Shown: positions 7,334 through 32,553 of the stretch, one piece after another
How positions within the stretch are numbered: the first letter of the stretch is position 1
Layout of the letters: each line of letters starts with the position of its first letter
Position numbers and translations under genes: made by a program
The notes under the pieces: generated by a model
Seen by the model: the letters and a program-made list of their open reading frames with translations, nothing else
Database searches by the model: none
Told to the model about the DNA's origin: nothing
Source of the DNA: Nitrospira sp.
GTDB taxonomy: Bacteria; Nitrospirota; Nitrospiria; Nitrospirales; Nitrospiraceae
Assembly: GCA_005116815.1 (NCBI GenBank)
Contig: SWDR01000028.1
Location: forward strand, 52,657-85,209
Direction: 5' to 3'
Length of the DNA stretch: 32,553 nucleotides

Positions 7334-7912
7334 ATGCGAAATAAGATCCCCTGCTCTGCTGAGCGGTTAAGCCTCCTGGATCCTCCTATGATCCAGGCAG
7401 TGGTCGATCGTAATGCCTTTCACATCGGCAGCCAGTACCTCTCCGAGAATCGCGTTCGAATTGTCGAGGCCGATGACGCGCAGATTTCTTCCGCCGTCAT
7501 TGGAAACTCCGGTCTCTACGAACAGACGATCCGTCTCAAGGAAGGGCATCTCATTTCCAAATGCAGCTGTTCACTGCCTGAAGAGCCCATGTGCCGCCAT
7601 TGCATCGCGGTTCTGCTGGAGTATCATCGGTGGGCGCAGCCAAGGAACGGTCAACAAAAGAAGACGAAGCCATCCGCAGCCCCGCAGCCAGCACAGGCCC
7701 CTCCGACTAACAATGGTGCGTCTACACCAACACCAACCGCTGCCGCGACGACGACGGACTTTAAGTTGGGGGAGGTGATGGCCTTCATTGAATGGCTTCA
7801 GCCCACGATCAAGGCGTTGGAGCGGTACTCAAGGCTCAGCACTATGGCCGGAACATCGGCGCGTCGTTGCCGAAGCGCTTTTTGCGGAGCTCTTCCATCA
7901 ACTCAATGGTAA
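7334..7912 (+). CDS. SWIM zinc-finger protein, probably 3'-truncated
   Basis: The N-terminal half looks normal for a bacterial SWIM protein: the zinc motif C-x-C-x7-C-x-H uses Cys77, Cys79, Cys87 and His89, followed by an IAVLLEYH helix. A Pro/Ala/Thr-rich linker leads into a helix (GEVMAFIEWLQPTIKALE). After about residue 158 the sequence loses its family character, and the last ~24 codons lie antisense to the end of the convergent radical SAM gene (71-base overlap). This suggests a deletion removed the original 3' end and joined it to the neighbour. The start is ATG 7334; TTG 7319 is in frame but less likely. SWIM domains bind DNA or proteins. Whether the shortened product works is unknown. 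Confidence 0.6.
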   Translation: MRNKIPCSAERLSLLDPPMIQAVVDRNAFHIGSQYLSENRVRIVEADDAQISSAVIGNSGLYEQTIRLKEGHLISKCSCSLPEEPMCRHCIAVLLEYHRWAQPRNGQQKKTKPSAAPQPAQAPPTNNGASTPTPTAAATTTDFKLGEVMAFIEWLQPTIKALERYSRLSTMAGTSARRCRSAFCGALPSTQW

Positions 7913-15829: not shown

Positions 15830-17314
15830 TTATTTGAGCGTCAGGACAGACTGCAGTGCAAAGCTAACGAGGGGGTTGGGGAAGAGGCCGAAGAGAATGA
15901 CGCCGGCGACGGCACAGGCTAACACGAAAGAGAGGGCCGGCGACGTCACGAGACGTGGTGCAACTGCAGCGGGATCAGGCTCGCGCATATACATCACCAT
16001 CACGACCCGCATGTAGTAGTACGCCGATACGGCAGCAAAGAGCAGGGCGATGGCGGCGAGCCAGGCCAAGCCTGCATCGACTGCCGCCATGAAGACATAG
16101 AACTTTCCGATGAAGCCGGCGGTCGGCGGAATACCTGCGAGTGAGACCATGAAGACCAGCATGAGAAAGGCCGCGAGCGGTTGGCGCTTTGCGAGGCCCG
16201 TGAAATCCTCAATCTCTTCGCCTTCGCGCTCACCCTTCCGGAGCATGCCGATGACCGCGAAGGCTCCGAGCGTCATGAACGAATAGAGGGCGAGATAGAT
16301 CATGACGCTGGCAAGGCCTGGCGTGGATCCCGACGGGCCGACTGCGCGGCCTGCCGCGACAAAGCCGATCAAGGCGTAGCCGGCATGGGCGATGCTGGAA
16401 TAGGCCAGCATCCGTTTGATGTTGGTCTGCACGATGGCCACGACATTTCCGAGCACCAGGGTGACAAGGGCGATGAGCAGGAACAGGAGCGACCAATCGG
16501 CTTTGAGCCCGCCAAGCCCTTCCACGAAGACACGCATGAAGGCGGCAAAGCTGGCCGCTTTTGCCGCCACGGCCATGAAGGCCGTCACAGAGGTTGGCGC
16601 GCCTTGGTAGACATCGGGTGTCCACATATGGAATGGCACGGCGGCGAGTTTAAAGCTGAAGCCCACGGCCACGAGAATCGTGGCGATCAGCACGAGGGGG
16701 TCGTTGGCTCCGTGAGTGCCGATGGCGCTGGCGATCGATGCCAACTTGGTGCTGCCGGCCATGCCGTAGAGCAACGAGATGCCGTACAAGAGAATCCCCG
16801 AGGAGAAGGCACCGAGGACGAAGTATTTGGCGGCGGCCTCCAGCGAACGGGGTTTCGATCGATTGAGTCCGGTCATGACGTAGAGCGAGAGCGACATGAG
16901 CTCGGTGCCGAGATATATCGTGAGCAAGTCGGCGCCGGAGACCATGACCATCATGCCGGACAAGGCGAGGAGGATGAACCCGTAGTATTCGCCCAGGTGG
17001 ATGCGTTCGGCCTTCAGGTACGGCAGCGACATCAAGATCGTCAGGCCGGTCACGCCATAGAGAAGGACTTTCCAGAACCTGGCATAGGCATCGATCACCA
17101 CCAGATCACTAAAGGCAGAGACCCGGATATTTAACGTGTTGATCTGACCGACGGTGAGCCCAAGGCAGAGGGAGAGGGCTCCGAGGCTCAGCCAGGCCAG
17201 GAGATCCCGCCGTGAGGCGGGTGTGATGGGGTCCAACGCGATGACAAGACAAGCCGCCGCGACAACAATGAGCTCGGGAAGCAGGGCTAAAAGGTCGGTA
17301 CCGTACAGGCTCAT
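15830..17314 (-). CDS. nuoN: NADH-quinone oxidoreductase subunit N
   Basis: The 494-residue protein is one of three antiporter-like proton-pumping subunits in the membrane arm of complex I. The family signature YLGTELMSLSLYVMTGL (with the key Glu in the early helix) and a later KRMLAYSSIAHAGY segment are visible, with about 14 hydrophobic helices. The length is normal. Its ATG overlaps the nuoM stop as ATGA, showing translational coupling. It is the last nuo gene. Confidence 0.97.
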   Translation of the reverse strand: MSLYGTDLLALLPELIVVAAACLVIALDPITPASRRDLLAWLSLGALSLCLGLTVGQINTLNIRVSAFSDLVVIDAYARFWKVLLYGVTGLTILMSLPYLKAERIHLGEYYGFILLALSGMMVMVSGADLLTIYLGTELMSLSLYVMTGLNRSKPRSLEAAAKYFVLGAFSSGILLYGISLLYGMAGSTKLASIASAIGTHGANDPLVLIATILVAVGFSFKLAAVPFHMWTPDVYQGAPTSVTAFMAVAAKAASFAAFMRVFVEGLGGLKADWSLLFLLIALVTLVLGNVVAIVQTNIKRMLAYSSIAHAGYALIGFVAAGRAVGPSGSTPGLASVMIYLALYSFMTLGAFAVIGMLRKGEREGEEIEDFTGLAKRQPLAAFLMLVFMVSLAGIPPTAGFIGKFYVFMAAVDAGLAWLAAIALLFAAVSAYYYMRVVMVMYMREPDPAAVAPRLVTSPALSFVLACAVAGVILFGLFPNPLVSFALQSVLTLK

Positions 17315-18873
17315 CGCGAGATTCCTTCAGTCGTCAGCGGCGTTCCACCGTCTGCCAGAAGTGGCGCGGCTTCTCCGGCAGAGAGTTGGGTCGTTGGTGC
17401 AACCTTCGTCCGGGACATGGAGGCGATCATACCGTTCACGCTTTGGTGCATCCGGCTCACGAGCGGATTCGGAAAGAGTCCGATCCAAAAAACCAACAGG
17501 GCCAGCGGCACCAGCGTGGCGAGCTCGCGCCGGTTGAGGTCCTTCAGCTTCGGGAGCTGGTGCGGGAGCGGGACGCCAAAGACGACTCGCTGAATCATCC
17601 AGAGGATATAGGCGGCGGCGAGGATGATGCCCAACGAGGCAAAGGCGGTGGCGACCTTGCTCCAGAGGAACGTGCCGACGAGCACGAGGAATTCTCCGAC
17701 AAAACTATTGGTGCCGGGGAGGCCGAGCGACGATAAGGCGAAAATCACCAACAGGGTGGCATATTGCGGCATCGGGGATGCCAGGCCGACATTGTCGGCG
17801 ATCAATCGGCTGTGGGTGCGCTCATAGATCATGCCGACGCAGAGGAACAGCGCGCCGGTTGTAATGCCATGGTTCACCATTTGGAGCACGGCTCCTTCGA
17901 TGCCCTGTTGGTTTAAGACAAAGATCCCGAGGGTCACGAACCCCATGTGGCTCACGCTCGAATAGGCGATCAGCTTCTTGAGATCCACCTGGGCCAGCGC
18001 CATATAGGCGCCATAGATGATGGCGACGATGGAGAGGGCGACCATCATGGGCGTGAAGGAACGGCTGGCGTCCGGCAGCATCGGCAAACTGAATCGCAGA
18101 AATCCATAGGTGCCCATTTTCAGCAGAATGCTGGCGAGGATGACGCTGCCGGCTGTCGGAGCTTCGACGTGGGCATCCGGGAGCCAGGTGTGAAAGGGGA
18201 ACATGGGGACTTTGACGGCGAAGGCGGCGAAGAAGGCCAGGAAGAGCCACATTTGCAGCGACGCCGGGTAGGTCCCTTGGCTCAACGCGAGGATGTCGAA
18301 GGTATGCCCTCCGTAAAAGTAGAGGGCGAAGATGGCGACCAATAACAGCACGCTTCCCGCAAGGGTGTAGAGAAAGAACTTGATGGCCGCATAGAGCCGA
18401 TTCGGTCCCCCCCAGACACCGATGAGGAGGTACATCGGAATCAACATGGCTTCCCAGAAGATATAGAACAAGACGAAGTCCAAGGCGACGAACACTCCGA
18501 CCATGGCAGTCTCCATGATCAGCAGCATGGCCATGAAGCCCTGCACTCTGGTCGTGATCGCCGTCCAGGAGGCCAGGACGCAGAGGGGCATAATCGCAAC
18601 GGTCATCAGGACCAGCGGGAGGCTGATTCCATCGAGGCCCAGGCTGTAGTAAATGGGAGGAGCGGTTATCCAGGCCACATGTTCGGTGAACTGCATCTGG
18701 CTCGCTTGCGGATCGAAGAGCCACCAGAGCGGGAGCGCGATACAGAGGTCTGCCAGGGTTGCAGCCAACGCAATCCAGCGAGCGGTCGATTCCGTCACGA
18801 CATACATCGCGGCGGCTCCCACAAGGGGGAGGACGAGGAGCAGTGAGAGCCAGGGAAATCCGCCGCTATGCAT
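17311..18873 (-). CDS. nuoM: NADH-quinone oxidoreductase subunit M
   Basis: The 520-residue membrane subunit is an antiporter-like proton channel of complex I. It shows FYIFWEAMLIPMYLLIGVWGG with the conserved channel Glu, a central GSVLLLVAIFALYFYGG region, PMFPFHTWLPDAHVEAPTAGS, and DLKKLIAYSSVSHMGF with the conserved Lys pair. The length is typical. It lies 6 bases after nuoL and overlaps nuoN by 4 bases. Only one nuoM is present here, unlike the 2M type of complex I described from some Nitrospira. Confidence 0.97.
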   Translation of the reverse strand: MHSGGFPWLSLLLVLPLVGAAAMYVVTESTARWIALAATLADLCIALPLWWLFDPQASQMQFTEHVAWITAPPIYYSLGLDGISLPLVLMTVAIMPLCVLASWTAITTRVQGFMAMLLIMETAMVGVFVALDFVLFYIFWEAMLIPMYLLIGVWGGPNRLYAAIKFFLYTLAGSVLLLVAIFALYFYGGHTFDILALSQGTYPASLQMWLFLAFFAAFAVKVPMFPFHTWLPDAHVEAPTAGSVILASILLKMGTYGFLRFSLPMLPDASRSFTPMMVALSIVAIIYGAYMALAQVDLKKLIAYSSVSHMGFVTLGIFVLNQQGIEGAVLQMVNHGITTGALFLCVGMIYERTHSRLIADNVGLASPMPQYATLLVIFALSSLGLPGTNSFVGEFLVLVGTFLWSKVATAFASLGIILAAAYILWMIQRVVFGVPLPHQLPKLKDLNRRELATLVPLALLVFWIGLFPNPLVSRMHQSVNGMIASMSRTKVAPTTQLSAGEAAPLLADGGTPLTTEGISR

Positions 18874-18879
18874 ACAACC

Positions 18880-20778
18880 TCAGAACATCAAAAAGACGGT
18901 CAGGATCACCACGACCCCGAGCGCCATACCGAGCGCGTAATGTTGTGTCTGTCCGCTTTGTGTGAGCCTCAAGATCCAGCCGCTCCAGGCGATCGCACGG
19001 GCCACACCATTCACCGCGCCATCGATCACGGCGACGTCGACACGCTTCCACAGTTCGGTGGCGGCGGAAAAGGTGGGGCGGACGATCGTCCGATCGTAGG
19101 CCTCATCGACATACCATTTGTTCAGCGATCCGCGATAGAGCGATTGCCACCGTCTGGCGAATTGATCGGGGAGTGCCGGGTTGAGGACGTAGACATAATA
19201 GGCGGCGGCGATCCCGAGTAAGCCCATACTCGTGGCCAGGACCATGATGGCGATGGCGGCTCCCCCCTCGTGCGCCGCGCCGCCAGTGCTGGTCTCAAAC
19301 ATCGGTCCAAGAAATTCAGGAATGCCGAGATACCCTGTGACGACGCTCAGTACGGCGAGGACGATGAGCGGCATGGTCATGGTGTGCGAGGGTTCATGGA
19401 TATGGCCTGCATGGTGAGGGTCGACATGCGAAGGGCCCCAAAATGTGACGAAGACCAGCCGGAAGCTGTAGAACGCCGTCATCAGGGCTGTCATGAGGCC
19501 GAGTACGGTCAGGAATTGACCGAGCGAGCCGCTCGACCAGGCCGAGACGAGTAGGGCGTCCTTGCTAAAGAAGCCCGATGTCAGGGGGAATCCAGCCAGC
19601 GCGAGTGAGCCCACCACGAAGGTCCAATAGGTGATTGGCAGCTTGTCTTTCAGCCCGCCCATGCGCCGCATGTCCTGCTCGTGATGCAGCGCGATAATGA
19701 CCGATCCGCACCCGAGAAAGAGGAGGGCTTTGAAGGCCCCGTGGGTCAGGAGATGGTACATGCCGGAGGCATAGGCGCCGAGACCGCAGGCCATGATCAT
19801 GTAGCCGAGTTGACTGACCGTCGAATAGGCCACGACGCGTTTGATGTCGGTCTGGGTCAAGGCGATCGTGGCACCGACCACCATGGTCAACCCGCCGGTG
19901 AGCGCCACGACAACCATGGCGGTGGGAGACAAGTTATAAAGTGGAGCCAAGCGCGCCACCATGAAGACACCGGCCGTGACCATCGTCGCGGCATGAATGA
20001 GGGCCGAGATGGGGGTGGGGCCTTCCATCGCATCCGGCAGCCAGACGTGGAGCGGCACTTGGGCGGATTTGCCGATTGCGCCGGTGAAGAGCAGGAGACA
20101 GATGAGTGTCAATACGGAGACGTCCCAGGTTCCACCAAATGGTCCGAGGACATTCATGACGTCACTCGCGGACTCGTGGGCGCGGGCAAATATTTCCGAA
20201 TAGTCGAGCGATCCGAAGCTGTACCAGACCAGGAGCAGGCCGAGCATGAAGCCGAAATCGCCGACGCGGTTGACGATGAAGGCCTTGGTGGCGGCGGCGC
20301 AGGCAGCCGGACGATCGTACCAATGGCCGATGAGCAGATAGGAGCAGAGCCCGACCGCTTCCCAGAAGATGAAGAGCTGCAGCAGGTTGTCCGCCATGAC
20401 CAACATCAACATCGAGAAGGTAAAGAGGGCAATGTAGCTGAAGAAGCGGGCATAGCCGGGATCTCGATCCATGTAGCCGATGGTATAGATGTGGACGAGG
20501 GAACTCACGGTTGTGACCAGGAGCAACATGACGGCGGTCAGCCGGTCGATGGAGAAGCCGATGTGAATGTCGAGCGCGCCAGAGGTCAGCCAGGTGTAGA
20601 GGGGGAAGCTTGTCTGATGTCCGCCTGCCACATCGAAGAAGACCAAGAGCGAGAGCAGCCACGATACGACGACAGCAGGGACGGCGACGAGATGAGCCTG
20701 GTCCTTGATCCAAGGTCCGAAGAGCCCGAGGATCAGGAACGACGCCAATGGGAGGAGCGGAATGAGTTCGTACGTCAT
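18880..20778 (-). CDS. nuoL: NADH-quinone oxidoreductase subunit L
   Basis: The 632-residue protein is the distal proton-pumping subunit of complex I, whose C-terminal lateral helix runs along the membrane arm. Visible signatures are FIFWEAVGLCSYLLIGHWY, FIVNRVGDFGFMLG, KSAQVPLHVWLPDAMEGPTP and DIKRVVAYSTVSQLGYM. The long C-terminal extension (about residue 480 on) includes YVDEAYD, common before the final helix. The length is typical. A 154-base gap holding a heptad inverted repeat separates it from nuoK, an unusually large gap in this operon. Confidence 0.97.
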   Translation of the reverse strand: MTYELIPLLPLASFLILGLFGPWIKDQAHLVAVPAVVVSWLLSLLVFFDVAGGHQTSFPLYTWLTSGALDIHIGFSIDRLTAVMLLLVTTVSSLVHIYTIGYMDRDPGYARFFSYIALFTFSMLMLVMADNLLQLFIFWEAVGLCSYLLIGHWYDRPAACAAATKAFIVNRVGDFGFMLGLLLVWYSFGSLDYSEIFARAHESASDVMNVLGPFGGTWDVSVLTLICLLLFTGAIGKSAQVPLHVWLPDAMEGPTPISALIHAATMVTAGVFMVARLAPLYNLSPTAMVVVALTGGLTMVVGATIALTQTDIKRVVAYSTVSQLGYMIMACGLGAYASGMYHLLTHGAFKALLFLGCGSVIIALHHEQDMRRMGGLKDKLPITYWTFVVGSLALAGFPLTSGFFSKDALLVSAWSSGSLGQFLTVLGLMTALMTAFYSFRLVFVTFWGPSHVDPHHAGHIHEPSHTMTMPLIVLAVLSVVTGYLGIPEFLGPMFETSTGGAAHEGGAAIAIMVLATSMGLLGIAAAYYVYVLNPALPDQFARRWQSLYRGSLNKWYVDEAYDRTIVRPTFSAATELWKRVDVAVIDGAVNGVARAIAWSGWILRLTQSGQTQHYALGMALGVVVILTVFLMF

Positions 20779-20932: not shown

Positions 20933-21238
20933 TTACCATTTCAGCAACTGAAATTCGTCGATGTTGATCGTGGACTTGGCCCGATAGAGGGCGATGATAA
21001 TCGCCAACCCGACTGCCACTTCTGCCGCCGCGACTGTCAGGGCGAAGAACACGAAGACCTGCCCTCCCACATCGTGGAAGTACTGCGAAAAGGCCACGAA
21101 GTTAATGTTCGTCGCATTTAACATCAATTCGACCGACAACAAGATAATGATGATGTTCCGACGAAGGAGCACACCGATGACTCCGGTCAGAAATACGATA
21201 CCGCTCAGCACGAGATAGTAGGACAACGGGATCGTCAT
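20933..21238 (-). CDS. nuoK: NADH-quinone oxidoreductase subunit K
   Basis: The 101-residue protein has three membrane helices, as usual. The two conserved membrane glutamates needed for proton transfer are present at Glu37 ([10 protein letters not shown]) and Glu73 ([13 protein letters not shown]), matching E36 and E72 of E. coli NuoK. It lies in the E-channel region of complex I between NuoH and NuoN. The 77-base gap to nuoJ is filled by a heptad inverted repeat. Confidence 0.97.
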
Positions 21239-21247
21239 GCCACCCTC

Positions 21248-21333
21248 GTGATGAGTAATGAGTGATGGGTGATGGGTGTACTATTTAATGTGTCGAGTCG
21301 TTCTCGCATCACTGATCACCCTTCACTGTTCAC
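21248..21333. repeat. Inverted array of degenerate 7-bp repeats in the nuoJ-nuoK gap
   Basis: The left arm (21248-21282) has units GTGATGA, GTAATGA, GTGATGG, GTGATGG, GTGTACT. The right arm (21306-21333) reads on the minus strand GTGAACA, GTGAAGG, GTGATCA, GTGATGC. About 20 of 28 positions match across the arms. The right arm runs into nuoJ and encodes its last residues and stop. Confidence 0.8.
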
Positions 21334-21837
21334 CGCCTCTGGGTCTTTCTTGGCCAGAATGATGGCGCCGATCATCGCGACGAGCAAAATCAAGGACGCC
21401 ACCTCGAAGGGAAAGAGATAGGTGGAATAGAGCACGTCGCCAATCGCTTCGGTGTTTCCGGCTTCCCCGACTGCCGTTTCCCTGCCGGTCGCTACGGTCG
21501 GAGCCGTCCAGCCTTTCATGGCCGTGAGGATGACGGCTTCGATGAAGAGCGTCATCCCTACTGCGGCGGCCATGGGCCATTGCCGATGGTAGCGGTCATC
21601 CTGTCGCATATTCAGCAACATGACGACAAAGAGATAGAGGACCAATATCGCGCCGGCGTAGACGATAATTTGTACGGCGGCCAGGAATTCCGCGTGCAGT
21701 GTGACATAGAGTCCCGCCACGTGAAAAAACATGACGAGCAGCGCCATCGCACTGTAGATCGGATTGCGGACCGCGATCACGAGCACCGACGCGGCGGCGA
21801 TCACGAACGCAAAGTAGAAAAAGAATGCCTGTTCCAT
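21316..21837 (-). CDS. nuoJ: NADH-quinone oxidoreductase subunit J
   Basis: The 173-residue membrane subunit has about five helices, with the family pattern PIYSAMALLVMFFHVAGLYVTL and IIVYAGAILVLYLFVVMLLNM. In complex I the third helix contains the pi-bulge that gates proton transfer. The last codons (VNSEG and the stop) are made of 7-bp repeat units shared with the gap behind, so the natural end may have been remodelled. It lies 16 bases after nuoI. Confidence 0.96.
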   Translation of the reverse strand: MEQAFFFYFAFVIAAASVLVIAVRNPIYSAMALLVMFFHVAGLYVTLHAEFLAAVQIIVYAGAILVLYLFVVMLLNMRQDDRYHRQWPMAAAVGMTLFIEAVILTAMKGWTAPTVATGRETAVGEAGNTEAIGDVLYSTYLFPFEVASLILLVAMIGAIILAKKDPEAVNSEG

Positions 21838-21853
21838 CGATCTCTAGAGCCCC

Positions 21854-22393
21854 TTAGGTCGGCTTTTGCGGCAGGTGCTTGAACGCCACGTTGAAGAACG
21901 CCACATTCGGGTGTTGGAGTTCCAACTGTTTTTCGCGAACGGGAAACGACCGGTCGCCGATGGCGAGCAATTGCTGCTTATTCAGGTGCAGCTGCCGCTT
22001 GTCGTACACCGCCCATTCATATTCGCGTGTCATGCCGAGGGCATCTACCGGACAGGCATCGACGCACAGCCCGCAAAACAGGCAGCGGGTCATGTCCATG
22101 TAGTATTCTTTCGAGTAACGTTTCGTCGGCTCGCCCGGCACTTCGGCGCTGACCACGCGAATGACCCGCGAGGGGCAGGCGGCTTCACAGAGATCGCAGC
22201 CAACACATTTTTCCGTTCCGTCGTCGTATCGTAACAAGGCCAGCATGCCGCGGTAGTTGTCCGGCAACGTCCGTTTTTCATGCGGGTACTGCAGGGTGAT
22301 CGGTCGATAGTGGATCAAATGCGACATCGTCGCTTTCATGCCTACGAGGAGATCGTAGAAGGTGATGGTTTTGATCCAGGTCTTGAACGTCAT
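21854..22393 (-). CDS. nuoI: NADH-quinone oxidoreductase subunit I (two 4Fe-4S clusters)
   Basis: The 179-residue ferredoxin-like subunit carries clusters N6a and N6b. The first ligand set is Cys63, Cys66, Cys69 and Cys73 (CVGCDLCEAACP) and the second is Cys104, Cys107, Cys110 and Cys114 (CLFCGLCVDACP). An N-terminal amphipathic helix (residues 1-30) anchors it against NuoH. In complex I it passes electrons from NuoG toward NuoB. It lies 62 bases after nuoH. Confidence 0.97.
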   Translation of the reverse strand: MTFKTWIKTITFYDLLVGMKATMSHLIHYRPITLQYPHEKRTLPDNYRGMLALLRYDDGTEKCVGCDLCEAACPSRVIRVVSAEVPGEPTKRYSKEYYMDMTRCLFCGLCVDACPVDALGMTREYEWAVYDKRQLHLNKQQLLAIGDRSFPVREKQLELQHPNVAFFNVAFKHLPQKPT

Positions 22394-22455: not shown

Positions 22456-23547
22456 TCACCGCGGAAAGAAATAGGCGGTGATGGCGGTGACGACGATATT
22501 GGCCAGCGCGATCGGTAACATGACCTTCCAGCCGAATCGCATCAATTGATCGTAGCGCAGCCGGGGTAATGTGGCGCGCAACCAGAAAAAGAGGAAGAGG
22601 AACAGGTAGACCTTGAACGTGAACCAGGCGACGTTTTCCACCCAGGCCAACTGCTCGAGGCCGATATAGCCGAGGATCGTGCCGGGATAAGGGGCGTTCC
22701 AGCCGCCCAAGAACAACGAGGCGGCGACGCAAGACACGAGGACCATGTTGGCGTATTCGGCGATGAAGAAGAACGCGAAGCGCATGCCGCTATATTCCGT
22801 AAAGAATCCGGCCACGAGTTCGCTTTCCGCTTCCGGCAGATCGAAGGGGACACGATTGGTCTCGGCCACGGCAGAGATGACGAAGACCACAAAGGCAAAG
22901 ATTTGAGTATGGATCGGAAAGTATCCGTCCGGGCGCGCACCCCAGATGAACCAATGCCAGAAGCCGCCGGCTTGGGCTTCCGTGATCGTGACGAGGCTCA
23001 ACGACCCTGCCAACAGCAGCACCCCGATGATCGCGAGCCCGACGTTCAACTCGTAGCTGATGACCTGGGCCGCGGAGCGCAAGCCTCCCAGGAGTGAATA
23101 CTTGCTGTTGGAAGACCAGCCGCCCAGGATAATGCCGTAGGCGCCGATCGAGGTAAAGGCCAGGATGTACAAGATGCCGATGTTGATGTCGCTGATCACG
23201 AAGGGTTTGATCGTGATGCCAAAGACATCGACGGTCAGGGCCGGGCCGAAGGGAATGACCGCGAATCCGATCATGGCGGGGACCATGGCCAGGATCGGCG
23301 CCAGGGTGAACATCGCCTTGTTGGCGCCGGCCGGCACGATGTCTTCTTTGAAGAACAACTTCAGGCCGTCTGCGATCGGTTGGAGGATGCCATAGGGGCC
23401 GACCTCCATCGGGCCCATGCGATCCTGCATCCAGCCGAGCACTTTCCGCTCGGCCAGGGTCAGGATCATGACCGTCAACATCACGATGCCCATCACCGCC
23501 GCTATCTGGGCAAGCGAAACCGCAAGGCGCAGGCTTAGTTCAGTCAC
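22456..23547 (-). CDS. nuoH: NADH-quinone oxidoreductase subunit H
   Basis: The membrane subunit forms the quinone tunnel and meets NuoB and NuoD. Signatures seen are [67 protein letters not shown] and a C-terminal [16 protein letters not shown] chose GTG 23547 (363 residues) because GGAG stands about 8 bases before it; the frame can be extended to TTG 23568 (370 residues), which has no ribosome site. It lies 49 bases after nuoG. Confidence 0.96.
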
Positions 23548-23596
23548 GACAGCACTCCCGGATGACAAGTGAAAATAACCATGGGTTCTCGTTTGC

Positions 23597-24571
23597 TCAC
23601 GTTGTTTTCATGACCGACACGGAGACCGTCCGATAGGATGGGACCTTCGTCTCCAGATCGATGACACAGTCGAAGAGTCGCAGGGCGTCCTGGGCAAAGT
23701 GATCGGGAAGCCAGGCCAATCCCTCTGGCACGCGATCGAGTACTTTCACCGTCGTGGTGAATTCACCCCGGCTGTTCGAGAGGCGCACGCGATTTCCCGT
23801 GTCGAGGGAGCATCGGGCCGCATCCACGGGATTCATCTGCAAAAACCCGCTCGGTTCGATCTGGAGGAGCCCCTTCGAACGGGTCGACAGCTTCCCTGAA
23901 TGGAACAGGCTCTGGACGAGCCCAAGCTGGACCGTTCCCTCCGGACGCAGGGTTCGCGCGGGCAGAGTATACCGAGACACAAGGTCCTGGCGATATCCCC
24001 CGCCGACATATCGGTCGACAGCGGCCGCATCCACTTTGGGAGGGATCGGCGTGGGGCTGAGCGATCCATATCCGGGAATGACGGTCCGGATCTCTTTGAG
24101 GATTTCCTTCGCATCGCCGTATTCCAATGGCACGCCAAGGAACACGGAGATGGCCGACAGGATTTCCCAGTCGGGACGGCTGTCCCCCACCGGATCGATC
24201 GCAGGCCGAACGGTCTGAATGTGTCCTTCGGTATTCGTGAAGGTTCCGGCTTTCTCCATAGCGGAAGCGGCGGGGAGCACCACATGGGCGAGCGCAGCCG
24301 TTTCTGTGAGGAAGAGTTCCTGGCAGACGAGGAGATCGAGTTTGCCTAAGGCTTCTTTGACTCTGGTCTGGGGAGGCAGGCTCCCGACGGGATTTTCTCC
24401 GATGACGAAGAGGCTCTTGATGATTCCGGCTTGCGCCCGGTCGATCATCTCGATGAGGGTGGCCCCTGCAGCCAGAGGGAGCTCCTCTTTCCAGGCACGC
24501 ACCATCTGTGCGCGCGCGTCCTGAGCGGTGAGGTCGAGTGCGCCAGGCAGCAGTTCCGCAACCGCGCCCAT
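23597..24571 (-). CDS. nuoG: NuoG C-terminal fragment (separate frame)
   Basis: This 324-residue frame continues NuoG after a -1 change of frame at about 24571. It covers the later part of the molybdopterin-oxidoreductase-like fold: [54 protein letters not shown], and a C-terminal beta domain of the MopB type. It begins with ATG 24571, and AAGGAG stands at 24585-24580, 8 bases before the ATG, so it could be translated on its own. Adding one base before the ATG would give one NuoG of about 868 residues, a normal length. The cause may be a sequencing error, a real mutation or a working split gene. Confidence 0.85.
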
Positions 24572-26202
24572 TTCAACTGCTCCTTGACGAGCAGGAGATC
24601 GAGAAGATTGAGGCAGATGCCATAGGCACCCTGGCTGCGCAGCAGAGTTTGGCCGGCCAGCACGACAACCCGCCGTCCCTTGGCGAGTGACGAGGCCATG
24701 CTCGCGAAGGATTCTCGCGACATCCCAGTGTTCAGGGCCAGATCGTCCCAGGATAGTTGTTGGACCGCTTGAGAGATGGACGAGACATAGTCCGATGCCC
24801 GTTGACGGAGCGCATTGTCGATATGGTTACCCTCGACCACCGCTTTCAACAGGCCCAAGACGGCTGTGCCGAACTGGGATGGGGCCACACACAGATGATG
24901 CTGCGACAGGTTGGTAATGTTGCTGATCGTGCCGATCGCCGGCTGGAGCGCCTCGATCGTCAATAGGGTCGCGTCGTGTTTCTTGACGGCTTCTTTGACT
25001 TGAAGGCCGGTGATCGGGTTGGCTTCCGTGATATTGGTGCCGACCAACAGCAGTACGTCTGCTTGTACGATGTCTTCGAAGGTGACGGTCCAGCGATGTG
25101 TGCCTTGGACCCGCCGCAGGGCCTGGGTTCCGTTGATATGGCCGTACCGGGCGCTGCTGTCGAGATTATTTGTTCCGATCGTGACGCGCATGAATTTCTG
25201 GAATAGATAGAGTTCTTCGTTGGTGCAGCGACCGGAAATCAGTCCGCCGAAGGCTTGGGCGCCATGCGCCAGCTTGATCCGTTTGGTCTGTTCGGCCACA
25301 TATTCCAAGGCCTCTTCCCAGGTGGTTTCGACCAGCGAACCGTTCCGTCTGATCAAGGGTTGGGTGATCCGGCTGGGATGGCTTGTGGCGTGGAATCCAA
25401 AAAACCCGCGGGCGCAGAGGTCGCCGTTGTTCCGGCCGGCCCCCTGGGCGCTATTCACTTCGATCAGTTCCTGACCCTTGGTTTGGACCGTGATCTGGCA
25501 GCCGTCTCCGCAAAATGAACAGACCGTATCGGCGCGTTTCAGCATCCAGGGACGATATTCATACATCGAGAGCCGGCTGGTAATGGCGCCGACTGGGCAA
25601 ATCTGCACGCAGCCGCCGCAGAACTCGCAGTCTAACGGGTGGGCGCCAAACGATTTGATCTCGGTCATCGTGCCTCGTCCGACCGGAGCGAGGGCTTTGA
25701 CATCCATGACTTCGTCGCAGTAGCGGACGCACCGTAGACATTGCACACAACGGTTCATCTGCGTTTCGATGAGGGGACTGAAGTATTCCTTCTGGAAGAT
25801 ACGCTTGGTTTCCGCAAACCGGCTGGTGGTCGCGGTGTATTGATGGGAGAAGTCTTGCAGGTCGCACTTGCCGCCCTGGTCGCAGACCGGGCAATCCAGT
25901 GGGTGATTGGCCAGGATGAATTCCAGCACCGACTTGTGGGCATCGTGGACGACCGTCGTCGCGGTTCGAACGGACATGCCCTCGGTGGCAATCGTGCTGC
26001 AGGAGGTCTGGAGCTTCGGCATCTTTTCGACTTCGACCAGGCACATGCGACAATTGGCATCCGGCTTGAGCTTCGGGTGGTAACAGAAGTGTGGAACCAT
26101 GACCCCAACACGACGAGCGGCTTCGATCACCAGGGTGCCCTTGGGCACCGAGATGGGAATGCCGTCGATCGTCAAGCGAACGGTGTCGGTCGTGGTAGCC
26201 AT
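24445..26202 (-). CDS. nuoG: NADH-quinone oxidoreductase subunit G, N-terminal part (frame changes near residue 543)
   Basis: The frame has 585 codons, of which about 543 are NuoG; the last ~42 are out-of-frame sequence. Ligands for all expected clusters are visible. The 2Fe-2S site (N1b) is Cys40, Cys51, Cys54 and Cys68. N5 is His100, Cys104, Cys107 and Cys113. Two Cys sets at 152/155/158/162 and 192/195/198/202 support N4. An extra C-x2-C-x3-C-x27-C (Cys228, Cys231, Cys235, Cys263) matches the N7 cluster known from E. coli and Thermus. The first third of the catalytically inactive molybdopterin-type domain follows. The protein passes electrons from NuoF to NuoI. It starts 3 bases from the nuoF stop. 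Confidence 0.93.
   Translation of the reverse strand: MATTTDTVRLTIDGIPISVPKGTLVIEAARRVGVMVPHFCYHPKLKPDANCRMCLVEVEKMPKLQTSCSTIATEGMSVRTATTVVHDAHKSVLEFILANHPLDCPVCDQGGKCDLQDFSHQYTATTSRFAETKRIFQKEYFSPLIETQMNRCVQCLRCVRYCDEVMDVKALAPVGRGTMTEIKSFGAHPLDCEFCGGCVQICPVGAITSRLSMYEYRPWMLKRADTVCSFCGDGCQITVQTKGQELIEVNSAQGAGRNNGDLCARGFFGFHATSHPSRITQPLIRRNGSLVETTWEEALEYVAEQTKRIKLAHGAQAFGGLISGRCTNEELYLFQKFMRVTIGTNNLDSSARYGHINGTQALRRVQGTHRWTVTFEDIVQADVLLLVGTNITEANPITGLQVKEAVKKHDATLLTIEALQPAIGTISNITNLSQHHLCVAPSQFGTAVLGLLKAVVEGNHIDNALRQRASDYVSSISQAVQQLSWDDLALNTGMSRESFASMASSLAKGRRVVVLAGQTLLRSQGAYGICLNLLDLLLVKEQLKWARLRNCCLAHSTSPLRTRAHRWCVPGKRSSLWLQGPPSSR
24580..24585 (-). promoter_or_regulatory. Shine-Dalgarno before the internal nuoG start
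   Basis: AAGGAG on the minus strand lies 8 bases before ATG 24571. It is inside the nuoG coding sequence (codons for VKEQ) and could start translation of the C-terminal fragment. It may equally be chance. Confidence 0.45.
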
Positions 26203-26204
26203 CG

Positions 26205-27512
26205 TTAGGGTTGAGCCAGGATCCGTTTCGGGTGGATCAGATTGGCCGCCTCCGCTTCGTGAATCATTTTGACGTACTCAGGCCGCCAATGTTTGAGCGT
26301 ACTCATAATCGGCGATATTTCCGCGTCGCCGAACGCGCAGACCGTCCGGCCCGCGATGTTCTTGCATAGATCGACCAAGGTTTCAAGGTCTTCCATCCGC
26401 CCACGCCTCGCGACGATCCGTCGCATGGTTTGCACTAGCCAGGAGCTGCCTTCGCGGCAGGGACTGCACTTGCCGCAGGACTCATGATAGAAAAACTCCA
26501 TGAGGCGGAGCGCGGCCCAGACCATGTCCGTGCCCTCTTCCATCACGGTGACTCCGCCGGAGCCGAGCATCGAGCCGGCAGCGGCGACGGACTCGAAGTC
26601 GAGTTTGACGTCGAGGCTGTCCGGTGTCAGGAACGGCGCGGAGGCTCCACCCGGGATGAAGGCCTTGAGCGGCTTGTCTGAACGCATGCCTCCTGCTTCT
26701 TCGTAGATCAGCTCTCGGAAGGTGACCCCCATCGGCACTTCGTAGTTGCCAGGCCGTTTGACATGGCCGCTGACGCAGAAGATTCTGGTGCCGGTGCTCT
26801 TGGGCGGGGAGCCGATGGCCGAGAACCATTCGGGCCCACGGCTGATGATGTGAGGAAGGTTTGCGAGGGTTTCGACGTTGTTCACCACGGTCGGCTTATT
26901 ATAGAGGCCATGGGTTGCCGGGAATGGCGGTTTGACGCGAGGCAGCCCGCGCTTGCCCTCAAGCGACTCCAGCAATGCCGTCTCTTCACCGCAGATATAG
27001 GCGCCGGCGCCCCGGTGCACCCAGACATTGGCGGTGATCCCTGTGCCCAGGATGTTCGTGCCGATATAGCCGGCGGTGCGCGCCTCGGCGATCGCCGCTT
27101 CCAAGATTCTGGCTCCAAGAACGAATTCGCCTCGTATATAAATGTAGGCGGACTCAGCGCCAATGGCGTAGCAGGCGAGCAGGATGCCTTCCAGGATCTG
27201 ATGGGGGTCCCGTTCGATGAGCTGGCGGTCCTTGAAGGTGCCAGGCTCGCTCTCGTCCGCGTTGCAGCAGAGGTAACGAGGGCCTTGGTAATCTTTGGGC
27301 AGGAATCCCCATTTGACGCCGGTCGGGAAGCCTGCGCCGCCTCGTCCCCGGAGCCCCGACTTCATCACGGTGCCGGTCACGTCGGTGGGCGGTACTTTGC
27401 CCACAACTTTGCGGAGCGCCTGGTAGCCGCCCGTCTTCTCATAGTCCGCCAGCGACCCGGTGTAGCCGGGCTGCAGCATGTTTTTCAACAGGACTGGTTC
27501 GTGTTTTGACAT
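26205..27512 (-). CDS. nuoF: NADH-quinone oxidoreductase subunit F (FMN and NADH site)
   Basis: The 435-residue subunit accepts hydride from NADH onto FMN. It shows the glycine-rich GLRGRGGAGFPTGVKWGF (residues 53-70), CNADESEPGTFKDR (83-96), a second nucleotide-site stretch GAGAYICGEETALLESLEG (168-186), and the N3 cluster ligands Cys346, Cys349, Cys352 (CGKCSPC) and Cys392. The length is normal. Presence of NuoE, NuoF and NuoG shows an NADH-linked complex rather than the ferredoxin-linked 11-subunit form. Confidence 0.98.
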   Translation of the reverse strand: MSKHEPVLLKNMLQPGYTGSLADYEKTGGYQALRKVVGKVPPTDVTGTVMKSGLRGRGGAGFPTGVKWGFLPKDYQGPRYLCCNADESEPGTFKDRQLIERDPHQILEGILLACYAIGAESAYIYIRGEFVLGARILEAAIAEARTAGYIGTNILGTGITANVWVHRGAGAYICGEETALLESLEGKRGLPRVKPPFPATHGLYNKPTVVNNVETLANLPHIISRGPEWFSAIGSPPKSTGTRIFCVSGHVKRPGNYEVPMGVTFRELIYEEAGGMRSDKPLKAFIPGGASAPFLTPDSLDVKLDFESVAAAGSMLGSGGVTVMEEGTDMVWAALRLMEFFYHESCGKCSPCREGSSWLVQTMRRIVARRGRMEDLETLVDLCKNIAGRTVCAFGDAEISPIMSTLKHWRPEYVKMIHEAEAANLIHPKRILAQP

Positions 27513-27523
27513 CGTTTTAATCT

Positions 27524-27607
27524 CGTGAAACGTCGTTCGTGAAGCGTGAAGCGTCTAACATCTCAAATTTCATTCCTGCGAGCGACGAGTACGAATCACG
27601 TTTCACG
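27524..27607. repeat. Inverted array of degenerate 7-bp repeats in the nuoE-nuoF gap
   Basis: The left arm (27524-27558) has units CGTGAAA, CGTCGTT, CGTGAAG, CGTGAAG, CGTCTAA. The right arm (27580-27607) is the inverted counterpart; its outer 17 bases (27591-27607) match the start of the left arm at 15 of 17 positions. The TGA stop codon of nuoE lies inside the right arm. Confidence 0.75.
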
Positions 27608-28139
27608 CCCCCGGCTTTGCCGGGGCCGGCTCCGGCCACATAAATGGGCCGGTCTTGAGAGAACAGGCTCCATCTTTTTTGAGATCGGCCAGGATGCGGT
27701 CGAACTTCTCTTCCGTCAGCCGTTCATAATAGTCTTCGTTGACCTGCATCATCGGTGCGGTGCCGCAGGCGGCGAGACATTCGACTGCGGAGAGGGTAAA
27801 GAGCCCGTCGGCCGTCGTTTCGCCCGGGCCGATGCCGAGTTTCGTCTTCACCCAGCCAATGACCGTATCTGACCCGACCAGCGCACACATCAGGGACTTG
27901 CAGATTTGGAGATGAAATTTCCCCACGCGCTTGAGATTGAGCATCGTGTAAAACGTGGCCGTCTCATAGACCTGTGGCGGGGTCAGGCGTAAGAGGCCCG
28001 CGATTTCCTTCATGGCAACCTCGGACACGTAGCCCTCATCCTGTTGCGCCAGGTAGAGCAACGGAATCAACGCCGAGCGTTTCACCGGATAGTGGCTCAG
28101 GATTTCGTCGATTTCTTTTTGGTACTTATCTTTTAACAT
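27603..28139 (-). CDS. nuoE: NADH-quinone oxidoreductase subunit E (2Fe-2S, thioredoxin-like)
   Basis: The 178-residue subunit has a helical N terminus and a thioredoxin-like 2Fe-2S domain (cluster N1a) with Cys80, Cys85, Cys121 and Cys125 (C-x4-C and C-x3-C). It pairs with NuoF in the NADH dehydrogenase module. The C terminus (PEPAPAKPGA) is low complexity and its stop codon is supplied by a repeat unit of the following gap. It starts 9 bases after nuoCD. Confidence 0.97.
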   Translation of the reverse strand: MLKDKYQKEIDEILSHYPVKRSALIPLLYLAQQDEGYVSEVAMKEIAGLLRLTPPQVYETATFYTMLNLKRVGKFHLQICKSLMCALVGSDTVIGWVKTKLGIGPGETTADGLFTLSAVECLAACGTAPMMQVNEDYYERLTEEKFDRILADLKKDGACSLKTGPFMWPEPAPAKPGA

Positions 28140-28148
28140 TCCACTTCC

Positions 28149-29900
28149 TCACCTATCACATTCTCCCATTACGATGTCATAGGTCCCGAAGATCGTGATG
28201 ATGTCTGAAATCAAATAACCTCTCGCCATGTGGTCGAAGGCACCCATGTGTACAAAGGATGGCGAGCGAATTTTCATTCGGTAGGGACGGGGGCTGCCGT
28301 CGCTGACGATGAAAAATCCCAATTCGCCCTTGGGGGCTTCGGTCGCACAGTAGGTCTCGGCCTTCGGTGGCTTGATGCCCTGGGTGTAAATGATGAAATG
28401 ATGGATCAAACTTTCCATGTCCCGCATGACCAGTTCTTTGGGGGGCGGAATATATTGCGGCGCCTCGGCCATGATCGGTCCTGCCGGTAGTTGCTCGAGA
28501 CATTGGGCGATGATTCTGGCGCTTTGCCGCATCTCTTCCATGCGAATCCAGTACCGGTCGTAGGTGTCGCCGTGCTTGCCGACCGGCACGTCCCACTCGA
28601 CTTTGTCATACACGCCGTAGGGCTCGACCTTGCGGACATCGTAGGCGACGCCGGATCCGCGCAAGACCGGCCCAGTGCAGCCGAAATTGATCGCGTCCTC
28701 GGCCGAGAGCACGGCCACGTTCTTCGTGCGGCCCAGCCAGATGCGATTCGATGCGATGAGCGAGTCGTATTCCTTGACCTTCTCGGGAAAGGTCTGGAGG
28801 AACGTCTTCATCCGTTGGACCAGTTCGGGCGTGAAGTCGCTGTCGACGCCGCCGATGCGGTAATAGTTCAATGTCAGCCGGGCGCCGCAGAGCTTTTCGA
28901 ACATGTCCAAGAGGATCTCGCGCTCCCGGAAAGTCCAGAAGAATACGGTCATGGCGCCGATATCGAGGGCCTGGGTGCCGAGCCAGAAGAGATGCCCGAT
29001 GATACGTTGCATCTCGGCCACGATGGTCCTGATATATTCGGCACGGACCGGTACTGTAATCTCGAGCAGTTTCTCCACGGCCCGCACGTAGGCATAGTTG
29101 TTGGACATGGCACAGACATAGTCGAGCCGGTCCGTGTGCGGGATGATCTGCATGTAGGTCAGACCCTCGGACAATTTTTCGACGCCTCGATGCAGGTAGC
29201 CAAGGTCCGGGGTGGCCTTCACAATCCGTTCGCCGTCTAATTCAAGGACCACACGCAAGACGCCGTGGGTGCTCGGATGCTGTGGCCCCATGTTCAGCAA
29301 CAGTTCTTCTTTCCGCCGGGAACTGGGCAAGCCTGGTTCCGCGCGAAAGGCGTTCTTCTGCTCTTCGGGGATCTCAAACGCACTTATGTCGAGCGGCGAG
29401 TCGTCCATTTTGGGGATAAAATCGAACTCGCTACGCCAGCCACGGCCTTCGGTCGGGAAGTCTTTTCTCAACGGATATCCCTCGGCATAATCTTCCGGCA
29501 TCAAGATGCGCCGGAGATCGGGATGGCCGGAAAAACGAATGCCCATCATGTCGAACACTTCGCGTTCCAGGAATTCCGCTCCCTTCCAGATGCCGGTGAC
29601 CGACGCGATTGTCGGGTCGTCTTCCGTGAGGCGGACTTTGAGTCGCAGGCGTTGGCGAAGCGGGAGCGAATGCAAGTGGTAGACGACCTCGAACCGCAGC
29701 CGGTCTTCGGGATAGTCGACCGAGCAGATATCCGTGAGATGGTCGAAGGTTGCTTCCGGCGCATCGTGCAGATAGCGCGCAACCTCCAGCAGATGTGCTG
29801 CAGCAATGGAAATAGCGGTTTCCGCCCGTGCGGCATCCACGCGGATCCCAAGGATCGCGTCGGGAAACTTCGCCTTCAAATTGTCGAGTAGGACTTTCAT
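28149..29900 (-). CDS. nuoCD: Fused NADH-quinone oxidoreductase subunits C and D
   Basis: The 583-residue protein joins NuoC (about 1-180) and NuoD (about 195-583), as in E. coli. NuoC shows the 30-kDa signature EREVFDMMGIRFSGHPDLRRIL. NuoD shows GPQHPSTHGVLR with the quinone-site His212, DRLDY with Arg258 and Tyr261, and the C-terminal FGTYDIVMGECDR. Arg258 is the counterpart of the arginine near N2 (bovine Arg85, Thermus Arg84) that NDUFAF7 methylates in mitochondria; a gene for that methyltransferase family heads this operon. Oddly, in GARLTLNYYRIGGV position 343 is Thr, where E. coli, Thermus and bovine homologues have the His linked to the redox-Bohr behaviour of N2. Confidence 0.97.
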   Translation of the reverse strand: MKVLLDNLKAKFPDAILGIRVDAARAETAISIAAAHLLEVARYLHDAPEATFDHLTDICSVDYPEDRLRFEVVYHLHSLPLRQRLRLKVRLTEDDPTIASVTGIWKGAEFLEREVFDMMGIRFSGHPDLRRILMPEDYAEGYPLRKDFPTEGRGWRSEFDFIPKMDDSPLDISAFEIPEEQKNAFRAEPGLPSSRRKEELLLNMGPQHPSTHGVLRVVLELDGERIVKATPDLGYLHRGVEKLSEGLTYMQIIPHTDRLDYVCAMSNNYAYVRAVEKLLEITVPVRAEYIRTIVAEMQRIIGHLFWLGTQALDIGAMTVFFWTFREREILLDMFEKLCGARLTLNYYRIGGVDSDFTPELVQRMKTFLQTFPEKVKEYDSLIASNRIWLGRTKNVAVLSAEDAINFGCTGPVLRGSGVAYDVRKVEPYGVYDKVEWDVPVGKHGDTYDRYWIRMEEMRQSARIIAQCLEQLPAGPIMAEAPQYIPPPKELVMRDMESLIHHFIIYTQGIKPPKAETYCATEAPKGELGFFIVSDGSPRPYRMKIRSPSFVHMGAFDHMARGYLISDIITIFGTYDIVMGECDR

Positions 29901-29969: not shown

Positions 29970-30449
29970 CTATTTCACGAACACCTTTTCCCGCTGAATC
30001 TTTTCTTGGAGCTTCAACAATCCATCGATCAAGGCTTCAGGACGGGGTGGACATCCAGGCACATACACATCGACCGGAATAATCTGGTCGACGCCCTGGA
30101 CCACGGCGTAACTATTGTAATGGTTGCCGGAGGTGGCGCAGGAGCCCATCGAAATGACGTACCGAGGCTCCGGCATCTGGTCGTAGATGCGGCGGATCAC
30201 CGGCGCCATCTTGCGCGACACCGTGCCGGCGATGATCATGAGGTCGGATTGTCGCGGCGAGGCCCGAAAGACCCCGGCGCCGAATCGATCCAGGTCGTAG
30301 CGCGACGACACACTCGCAATCATTTCGATGGCGCAACAGGCCAGGCCGAAGGTCATCGGCCAGAGGGCCGACTTCCGGGACCAATTTACCACCGCATCCA
30401 GATTGGTCGTCAGAATATTTGCTTCGAACTGTCTCTCTAGAAAACTCAT
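29970..30449 (-). CDS. nuoB: NADH-quinone oxidoreductase subunit B (cluster N2)
   Basis: The 159-residue subunit binds the terminal cluster N2 through tandem Cys38-Cys39 (ACCAIEMIA), Cys104 ([11 protein letters not shown]) and Cys133 ([16 protein letters not shown]). It passes electrons to quinone at the border with NuoD and NuoH. The length is normal. It sits between two gaps: 93 bases to nuoA, holding a strong heptad hairpin, and 69 bases to nuoCD, with no clear repeat. Confidence 0.98.
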
Positions 30450-30463
30450 GTCGCGTTGCTCCG

Positions 30464-30531
30464 GTTCTGAGTGCTGAGTTCTGAGTGCTGAGTTTTTAGA
30501 TGGAACTCAGGACTCACAGCTCAGCACTCAG
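30464..30531. repeat. Inverted array of 7-bp repeats in the nuoA-nuoB gap, strong hairpin
   Basis: The left arm has GTTCTGA, GTGCTGA, GTTCTGA, GTGCTGA and a decayed GTTTTTA (30464-30498). The right arm has units of the type CACTCAG (30504-30531). Bases 30467-30494 pair with 30504-30531 at 25 of 28 positions around a 9-base loop. This is the cleanest member of the family and fills most of the 93-base gap. Confidence 0.9.
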
Positions 30532-30542
30532 CACTTTACTGG

Positions 30543-30914
30543 TTAGTCCCATTCGAGCGCCCCCTTCTTCCAGGCATACCAGAATCCGACCAACAGGATG
30601 CTCAGAAATACGAGCATTTCGACCAGCCCCAGCAGACCGAGCGACTGATAGCGGACGGCCCAGGGGATCATGAAAATGATTTCGATATCGAAAATGACGA
30701 ACAGCATCGCGATGATGTAGTAGCGCATCGGGAACTGAATGCGCGCATCGGAAAACAACGGACTTCCGCTCTCATAGGGCGTCAGTTTGGCGCGATAGGG
30801 ACGGCTTGGACGGACGAACCAGCCGGCGCCAAGCGAGACCGCGCCGAAAATAATGGCAATGCCGATGAACAGGAGGATCGGTATGTAGTTCTCTGGAATG
30901 GCGGTGTTACCCAT
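30543..30914 (-). CDS. nuoA: NADH-quinone oxidoreductase subunit A
   Basis: The 123-residue membrane subunit has three helices and the family pattern PYESGSPLFSDARIQFPMRYYIIAMLFVIFDIEIIFMIPWA, with the conserved acidic residues of the DIE motif. It borders NuoH and NuoJ near the quinone tunnel. It starts 5 bases after the stop of the MidA-like gene, so the two are almost certainly on one transcript. Confidence 0.97.
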   Translation of the reverse strand: MGNTAIPENYIPILLFIGIAIIFGAVSLGAGWFVRPSRPYRAKLTPYESGSPLFSDARIQFPMRYYIIAMLFVIFDIEIIFMIPWAVRYQSLGLLGLVEMLVFLSILLVGFWYAWKKGALEWD

Positions 30915-30919
30915 CTCGG

Positions 30920-32170
30920 TTACCCTCGCAGGCTAGGGGTTAGAGGTGAGTGGTGAGAGGTCGGATAGTGACCCCTTGCCTCTTGCCCCTTGCCTTGCGC
31001 CTGATTCGATATCAGTGCCGAGCCAAAGAAGGGTTTGAACTTCAAACCGTCGAGATCCGGACGTTCGATCCCTCGATGTTGCATCAGGATCTTGAAGGTC
31101 CGTCCCATCCCGTCCGGTTTGAGGAGATGGATGGCCGCGCCGAACTCCGGACTCTCCGGGTCGAGTTGGCCGATCATCTCTTCGACCCCGAGCCCCATGA
31201 GAAAACTCATCTGATTCGTAAAGCCCGTCACCTCCAGGCCGGCGGCGGCTCCGACGGTCGCCAGGCCGGTGAAGTCCACATGAGCGGTCATGTCTTGTTC
31301 GCCGATACGCACGTAGGGCACATCGCCGGTCAGTTGTTGGTAGTAACAGAGGAATGTGCCGTCCTTCCGTTCTGGTCCGTACAAATCTTCTGCCGTATGA
31401 CCATAGTCGATCGTCACCACGAATCCACGATCGATCCGTTGCGCGACTTGTGCCATCCAGTCCAATGCCTGGAGGTTGACCTCGGTCCGGTACCCGTCCG
31501 GCCAGCTCGGTTCGAGCTTCCGGATATATTGATCGAGCGCTGGATTCGATAGGGGCTTGAGACATTCCTCAAAGCGCCCATCCCGATAGTCGACGAAGAG
31601 TTCTTGTACCTGACCGGCGACCATTTGAATGCGGTGAACCGGGAAGGCATCCACGAGTTCATTGCTGAAGAAGAGGCCGGTCACGCTCTGGGGGCCGAGG
31701 GCATCCAGTCCTTCGACCCAAGTCACCAGCCCTGGCTGATTCAGCCATGGGGCCAGGTTCTGTCGTTGGAGTGCCTGCATCGCAGGGCTCCGTTCGATCA
31801 GCACGTAGCGAACGCGCGAGGCGAAGTCATCCTGCTTGGCATGGATTGCAGCCAGACAATCCCGGGCGAGCAAGCCTTTCCCCGCACCCATTTCGACGAT
31901 CGTAAAGGGCGTGGGGTGGCCCAATAATTCGTCCATTTGCCGGGCCTGCGCCGCAATGGCGCGGCCGAGGATCGGGTGCACATCCGAGCTGGTGTAGAAA
32001 TCGCCGGACCAACCGATGCGTTCTTGGTCCGCACCGTCCGGTTGGCGCATGTAATAGCCGTAGTGAGGATGATAGAGGGCCAGTTCCATGAAACGGACGA
32101 AGGGAATGGGTCCGTTCCCGATGATCTCGGACGAAATCGCAGCGACGAGTTCAGGATGTCCCAATGACAC
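30920..32170 (-). CDS. MidA/NDUFAF7 family SAM-dependent methyltransferase (DUF185, COG1565)
   Basis: The protein has 416 residues from GTG 32170, which has GGAGGAG six bases upstream; an in-frame TTG at 32209 lacks such a site. Family hallmarks are FMELALYHPHYGYY (27-40), GDFYTSSDVHPILG (56-69), SAM motif I IVEMGAGKGLLARD (91-104), and SNELVDAFPVHR (169-180). In mitochondria NDUFAF7 dimethylates an arginine of NDUFS2 (the NuoD homologue) and is needed for complex I assembly. Being first in a nuo operon supports the same job here, by inference. The last ~27 residues, rich in Gly, Gln, Ser and Pro, are encoded by a 7-bp repeat array and look like a later addition. Confidence 0.92.
   Translation of the reverse strand: MSLGHPELVAAISSEIIGNGPIPFVRFMELALYHPHYGYYMRQPDGADQERIGWSGDFYTSSDVHPILGRAIAAQARQMDELLGHPTPFTIVEMGAGKGLLARDCLAAIHAKQDDFASRVRYVLIERSPAMQALQRQNLAPWLNQPGLVTWVEGLDALGPQSVTGLFFSNELVDAFPVHRIQMVAGQVQELFVDYRDGRFEECLKPLSNPALDQYIRKLEPSWPDGYRTEVNLQALDWMAQVAQRIDRGFVVTIDYGHTAEDLYGPERKDGTFLCYYQQLTGDVPYVRIGEQDMTAHVDFTGLATVGAAAGLEVTGFTNQMSFLMGLGVEEMIGQLDPESPEFGAAIHLLKPDGMGRTFKILMQHRGIERPDLDGLKFKPFFGSALISNQAQGKGQEARGHYPTSHHSPLTPSLRG
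30931..31001. repeat. Inverted array of degenerate 7-bp repeats inside the 3' end of the MidA-like gene
   Basis: The left arm has GGCTAGG, GGTTAGA, GGTGAGT, GGTGAGA, GGTCGGA (30931-30965). The right arm, read on the minus strand, has GGCGCAA, GGCAAGG, GGCAAGA, GGCAAGG, GGTCACT (31001-30967). All units keep the leading GG in a 7-base rhythm. The array codes for most of the C-terminal tail of the methyltransferase. Confidence 0.75.
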
Positions 32171-32497: not shown

Positions 32498-32553
32498 ATG
32501 TTGAAGCGTACTTCGATTTTGCTGATTCTCGCTCTGGCCCAGTTCGGATGTGG
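32498..32553 (+). CDS. Start of a probable lipoprotein gene, cut by window edge
   Basis: An ATG at 32498 follows an AAGGAGA ribosome site (32487-32493). The 18 codons seen encode a basic start and a hydrophobic signal segment ending in a lipobox-like AQFGC (MLKRTSILLILALAQFGCG). The rest lies outside the window, so the function is unknown. Confidence 0.7.
   Translation, partial: MLKRTSILLILALAQFGC

Follow-up and report, generated by a model that had tools for sequence, protein, structure and literature searches.

A MidA/NDUFAF7-family methyltransferase gene heads the complex I operon of Nitrospira and is linked to complex I genes in other bacteria outside the Proteobacteria

The mitochondrial methyltransferase NDUFAF7 dimethylates arginine 85 of the complex I subunit NDUFS2 (PMC3829151). 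Among bacteria, Paracoccus has a dimethylated NuoD and the corresponding arginine of E. coli is bare (PMC3750175), while Thermus has a threonine at the site (PMC3750175, PMC8042128). According to PMC9006661, bioinformatic and structural evidence indicates that alphaproteobacterial homologues methylate NDUFS2. Here, we describe a gene of this family found in the window, a stretch of 32,553 nucleotides from a Nitrospira sp. contig, where it lies at the head of a nuoA-N operon. In the open literature we found no published linkage of MidA to nuo in Nitrospira or to ndhH in cyanobacteria (most subscription papers fell outside the search), and the unusually clean operon linkage outside the Proteobacteria is apparently unreported.

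The MidA gene and the nuo operon

The midA open reading frame has 416 residues if the GTG at 32170 is taken as its start. Its product matches the Pfam profile PF02636 over positions 2-249 of 249 (E-value 5.1e-65, 219.8 bits against a curated cut-off of 23.3), and an NCBIfam profile search gave no match. Its sequence relatives in the PDB are the Burkholderia thailandensis COG1565 protein, the Rhodopseudomonas protein 1zkd and Dictyostelium NDUFAF7/MidA. The AlphaFold model (mean pLDDT 82, with values below 50 at residues 55-63 and 382-416) superimposes on the Burkholderia structure 4f3n with a Z-score of 43.0, on Dictyostelium MidA (5ztz) with 40.2 and on 1zkd with 36.5, whereas the best unrelated methyltransferase reaches only 15.9, well below the three family structures. 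The protein carries the S-adenosylmethionine (SAM)-binding motif I (E-x-G-x-G), NEL/xDxxP and DYG, with the motif residues unchanged in 16 sequences, and in a phylum-wide alignment E93, G95, G97, N170-E171, D174, P177, D255-Y256-G257, Q292-D293 and H297 are invariant. Judged by its sequence and modelled fold, the gene is a true bacterial MidA of the known family, and the profile and PDB matches uphold the first-pass annotation, which had named it so.

The nearest solved structure is that of the Burkholderia protein (4f3n, and 4g67 with a bound ligand), at about 30% identity; its entry assigns it no function. With human and Dictyostelium NDUFAF7/MidA, the window protein has in common PF02636 and a full-length fold (368 residues aligned to 5ztz), and the partner subunits of both keep the target arginine; identity is about 23%, however, and the window MidA is encoded in a nuo operon, its methylation activity being predicted. 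It also falls outside the alphaproteobacterial/Dictyostelium branch, since in a quick tree Dictyostelium NDUFAF7 groups with the Alphaproteobacteria (SH-aLRT 100), apart from the Nitrospira branch. Alphaproteobacterial MidA proteins (Rhodopseudomonas 1zkd, Sinorhizobium, Azospirillum) have the family and the fold in common with it. A second, diverged PF02636 protein is present in three genomes of Nitrospirota family f2 (G133:C8:46558-47238, G137:C2:1114199-1114840 and G125:C32:46414-47058).

After midA, the genes nuoA, B, CD, E, F, G, H, I, J, K, L, M and N follow in that order (Table 1). The first-pass annotation had placed the end of the MidA-like gene 5 bases before nuoA, as the stop at 30920 and the ATG at 30914 bear out. 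It had also put MidA at the head of the operon, a fair description, as no same-strand gene was seen between midA and a divergent open reading frame starting near 32500, beyond which the next large same-strand frame upstream is secA (named from sequence).

Table 1. Coordinates in the window of midA, the nuo genes and two arginine codons of nuoCD
Feature	Position	Strand	Remarks
midA	30920..32170	-	MidA/NDUFAF7-family (COG1565, PF02636) methyltransferase; GTG start; residues 382-416 form a low-confidence tail
nuoA	30543..30914	-	ATG at 30914, 5 bp past the midA stop codon
nuoB	29970..30449	-	ligand subunit of cluster N2
nuoCD (fused)	28149..29900	-	proposed MidA substrate
NuoCD R238 codon	29187..29189	-	HRG motif; equivalent to NDUFS2 R85 and Yarrowia R121; predicted methylation site
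NuoCD R258 codon	29127..29129	-	equivalent to Yarrowia R141 and E. coli R274; distinct from the residue that is methylated
nuoE	27603..28139	-	
nuoF	26205..27512	-	
nuoG	23597..26202	-	two overlapping frames, 24445-26202 and 23597-24571
nuoH	22456..23568	-	
nuoI, nuoJ, nuoK	20933..22393	-	
nuoL, nuoM, nuoN	15830..20778	-	

The split nuoG reflects either a mutation in this strain or a fault in the assembly. A conserved frameshift is ruled out by the relatives, 17 of 18 of which carry nuoG as a single uninterrupted frame (about 865-927 codons), the remaining one ending at the end of the locus or of the match; the window nuoG region is 61 bp shorter than that of the closest relative, G085 (nuoG identity about 97%). 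Between nuoA and nuoB (30464-30534) lies an imperfect 31-nt inverted repeat of GAGTGCTGAGTTCT-like units, and the C-terminal tail of MidA is seemingly encoded by a low-complexity stretch resembling this GAGTGCTGAGTTCT-type repeat. Elsewhere in the window, a gene at 9227-11356 joins three PCP_red domains to a universal stress domain, and the product of the gene adjoining it (7842-9227) is a radical SAM/SPASM protein that also has a PCP_red domain. The same contig carries another complex I operon (L062, G000:C21:24300-37100), about 30 kb from the end of the nuoA-N operon. Its order by homology is A-B-C-D-G-I-J-K-L-M-M-N, with two NuoM and with NuoE/F not detected, similar to the 2M complex I already known from Nitrospira.

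Linkage and co-occurrence with complex I

The first-pass annotation had proposed a survey of COG1565-nuoA linkage across bacteria; we looked at the linkage in Nitrospirota, Cyanobacteriota, Bacteroidota and Desulfobacterota and in a GTDB-wide scan. In a sample of 148 Nitrospirota genomes, 117 have MidA. In the window's class, the locus could be evaluated in four families: MidA adjoins nuo genes in all of their evaluable genomes (39 of 39) and nuoA is directly downstream in 38 of them, the adjacency in two (G077 and G117) being taken from the MidA-NuoD distance. The 39th genome, G105, has lost nuoA-G, and its MidA stands directly ahead of nuoH-I-J; a genome of a fifth family (G139) was left outside the count, its contig ending about 350 bp past MidA. 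In the GTDB-wide scan, most of the Nitrospirales loci whose flanks were long enough also show the MidA-nuoA order. By chance, MidA would be expected within 3 kb of a nuoA in about 0.3% of genomes, versus nearly all in the class, and the adjacency there is not due to chance. In three genomes of family f6, MidA and nuoA share a strand, with MidA 4.4-4.8 kb upstream; for the remaining Nitrospirota families, the listed coordinates, compared by eye, showed no MidA-nuo adjacency.

G105 is a Nitrospira-family genome of 2.0 Mb in which secA, MidA and nuoH-I-J are left of the locus (L306, G105:C49:6000-13527). MidA persists there despite the loss of the linked NuoCD, and the genome retains a NuoD, again with the HRG motif, from its other complex I.

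Linkage was also found in the cyanobacterial phylum (136 genomes sampled, 63 with MidA). Ten cyanobacteria (G148, G171, G174, G188, G190, G205, G208, G240, G265 and G267) have the order ndhH-MidA, ndhH being the gene of the presumed substrate, one genome of the phylum (G152) has MidA-ndhC, and in two deep-branching members (G187 and G207) MidA heads a nuoA-B-C-D-E-F-G-H operon. Laspinema, Microcoleus and Phormidium are among the named cyanobacterial examples. In all, 13 of the 63 MidA-bearing genomes show linkage versus about 0.2 expected with random gene placement, a comparison between related genomes, so that a formal p-value overstates the case. Among 148 Bacteroidota genomes, MidA is present in one, where it follows nuoJ-K-L-M-N. 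A linkage private to the window genome is thus ruled out, being general in the class and recurring elsewhere, and the link between MidA and NuoCD as enzyme and substrate, proposed at first pass, gains support from it. Desulfobacterota genomes showed no MidA-nuo adjacency.

The operon had also been read at first as a sign that the methylation step predates mitochondria. That evolutionary idea is already published in essence, with the dimethylated NuoD of Paracoccus and the proteobacterial origin of the MidA system argued by Hameed 2018 (as cited in PMC8042128 and PMC9006661), and it does not rest on this operon. In Alphaproteobacteria, the lineage that gave rise to mitochondria, the two annotated genomes (Sinorhizobium and Azospirillum) have MidA between lgt and pgeF, away from nuo, with no sign of linkage.

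MidA is confined almost wholly to genomes with the complex I large subunit. In Cyanobacteriota, large-subunit sequence is present in all 63 genomes with MidA (as a fragment in G171), against MidA in none of about 59 genomes without this subunit (Fisher p 2e-25, kinship ignored). In Desulfobacterota, NuoD was found in 46 of 47 MidA-bearing genomes versus 60 of 91 without MidA (p 5e-6). The E. coli and Thermus control genomes are without MidA. Three genomes in which MidA seemed to occur without complex I are apparent exceptions only, NuoD being cut at contig ends in G067 and G116 and ndhH immediately preceding MidA at the edge of a contig in G171. In three other fragmented MidA-bearing genomes (G114, G106 and G466), NuoD was not found, the first two having been rechecked.

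One could explain the gene order by a single old rearrangement that brought MidA ahead of nuoA in the class, with the enzyme acting on another protein and its neighbourhood uninformative on the substrate. The MidA sequences of the class are indeed related to one another, and a single event may account for their linkage; MidA lies elsewhere in most of the Nitrospirota, in Desulfobacterota and in Alphaproteobacteria. We nevertheless regard this explanation as unlikely, considering that MidA is restricted to complex I-bearing genomes and that the arrangements differ in cyanobacteria, in a deep sister lineage and in Bacteroidota. The linked state changes at least 14 times on the quick MidA tree; given this and the variety of arrangements, several lineages gained or retained the linkage.

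An action on nucleic acid, regulating gene expression, has also to be considered for bacterial MidA, as PMC12455994 proposes DNA methylation for the Wolbachia protein and describes a DNA-methylation experiment with it. This is the least probable of the readings, since MidA occurrence tracks complex I and the fold match to the arginine methyltransferase MidA spans the full length of the protein.

The predicted target arginine in NuoCD

Aligned to solved structures with phmmer, NuoCD is free of gaps through the region of interest (residue 196 corresponds to Yarrowia 79, residue 197 to bovine/human mature 44), and the column of bovine/human R85 and Yarrowia R121 falls on R238, within YLHRGVEK. 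In the Yarrowia R121M entry 7b0n, the methionine falls precisely in this column. The first-pass annotation was right that an equivalent arginine is present but had numbered it Arg258. The alignments to solved structures rule out R258 as the methylation site: it sits in HTDRLDY and is a different functional arginine, Yarrowia R141, which PMC8042128 matches to E. coli R274 and regards as distinct from the methylated residue. The NuoD of the second Nitrospira complex I also carries HRG.

In each of the MidA-bearing genomes examined, at least one NuoD copy has arginine at the site, as do all MidA-linked NuoCD and all sampled cyanobacterial NdhH. In Desulfobacterota, arginine is present in 45 of 45 NuoD sequences from genomes with MidA and in 24 of 25 from genomes without it, and the MidA-less Nitrospirota families f7, f10 and f12 retain it too. 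The only sampled NuoD of four Nitrospirota genomes (families f11 and f18), all four without MidA, has threonine, which occurs also in extra NuoD copies, for instance in an Acidobacteriota genome with MidA whose other copies have arginine. Some Nitrospirota NuoD (L077-L080, L117-L119 and L076) have HTG as in Thermus. This residue pattern is consistent with MidA acting on the R238-equivalent arginine, but weakly so: arginine is near-universal, and its presence in MidA-bearing genomes is therefore weak evidence. MidA-less lineages keep HRG, so the residue does not need the modification to be useful, and since the E. coli arginine is unmethylated, the presence of arginine alone predicts nothing.

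The retention of arginine in several lineages without MidA, together with the ability of E. coli to build complex I with a bare arginine (PMC3750175), would also suit a MidA that binds NuoCD as a chaperone-like assembly factor and for which methylation is dispensable. We hold this to be improbable, because the SAM-site residues are invariant and because a methyltransferase-deficient MidA mutant does not rescue Dictyostelium (PMC9006661).

Predicted role in complex I assembly

Methylation of NuoCD by MidA remains the reading that we prefer, and we think it probable that the window gene codes for a genuine MidA, produced along with the subunits of complex I, which dimethylates R238 of NuoCD and aids assembly. 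In this model, MidA would bind newly made NuoCD and use SAM to dimethylate R238 symmetrically beside cluster N2 before NuoCD joins NuoB, a modification that would help the peripheral arm to assemble. MidA would probably also serve the NuoD of the second, 2M-type complex I of the cell. The first-pass proposal that the surroundings of cluster N2 are methylated in this organism thus stands as a prediction from sequence.

More broadly, there is perhaps an even chance that MidA-dependent dimethylation of the arginine near N2 is old and widespread in many bacterial phyla, including the cyanobacterial NDH-1 (on NdhH), and perhaps in the Fpo-like complex of Methanoperedens archaea, with one branch leading to mitochondria and with E. 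coli-like and threonine lineages doing without it. The main interest of these data lies in the recurrent linkage of MidA and complex I genes outside the Proteobacteria. It provides genomic support there for an enzyme-substrate pair shown so far mainly in mitochondria, and it names R238, together with Nitrospira and filamentous cyanobacteria, as places in which to test whether bacterial complex I is methylated close to the terminal iron-sulfur cluster.
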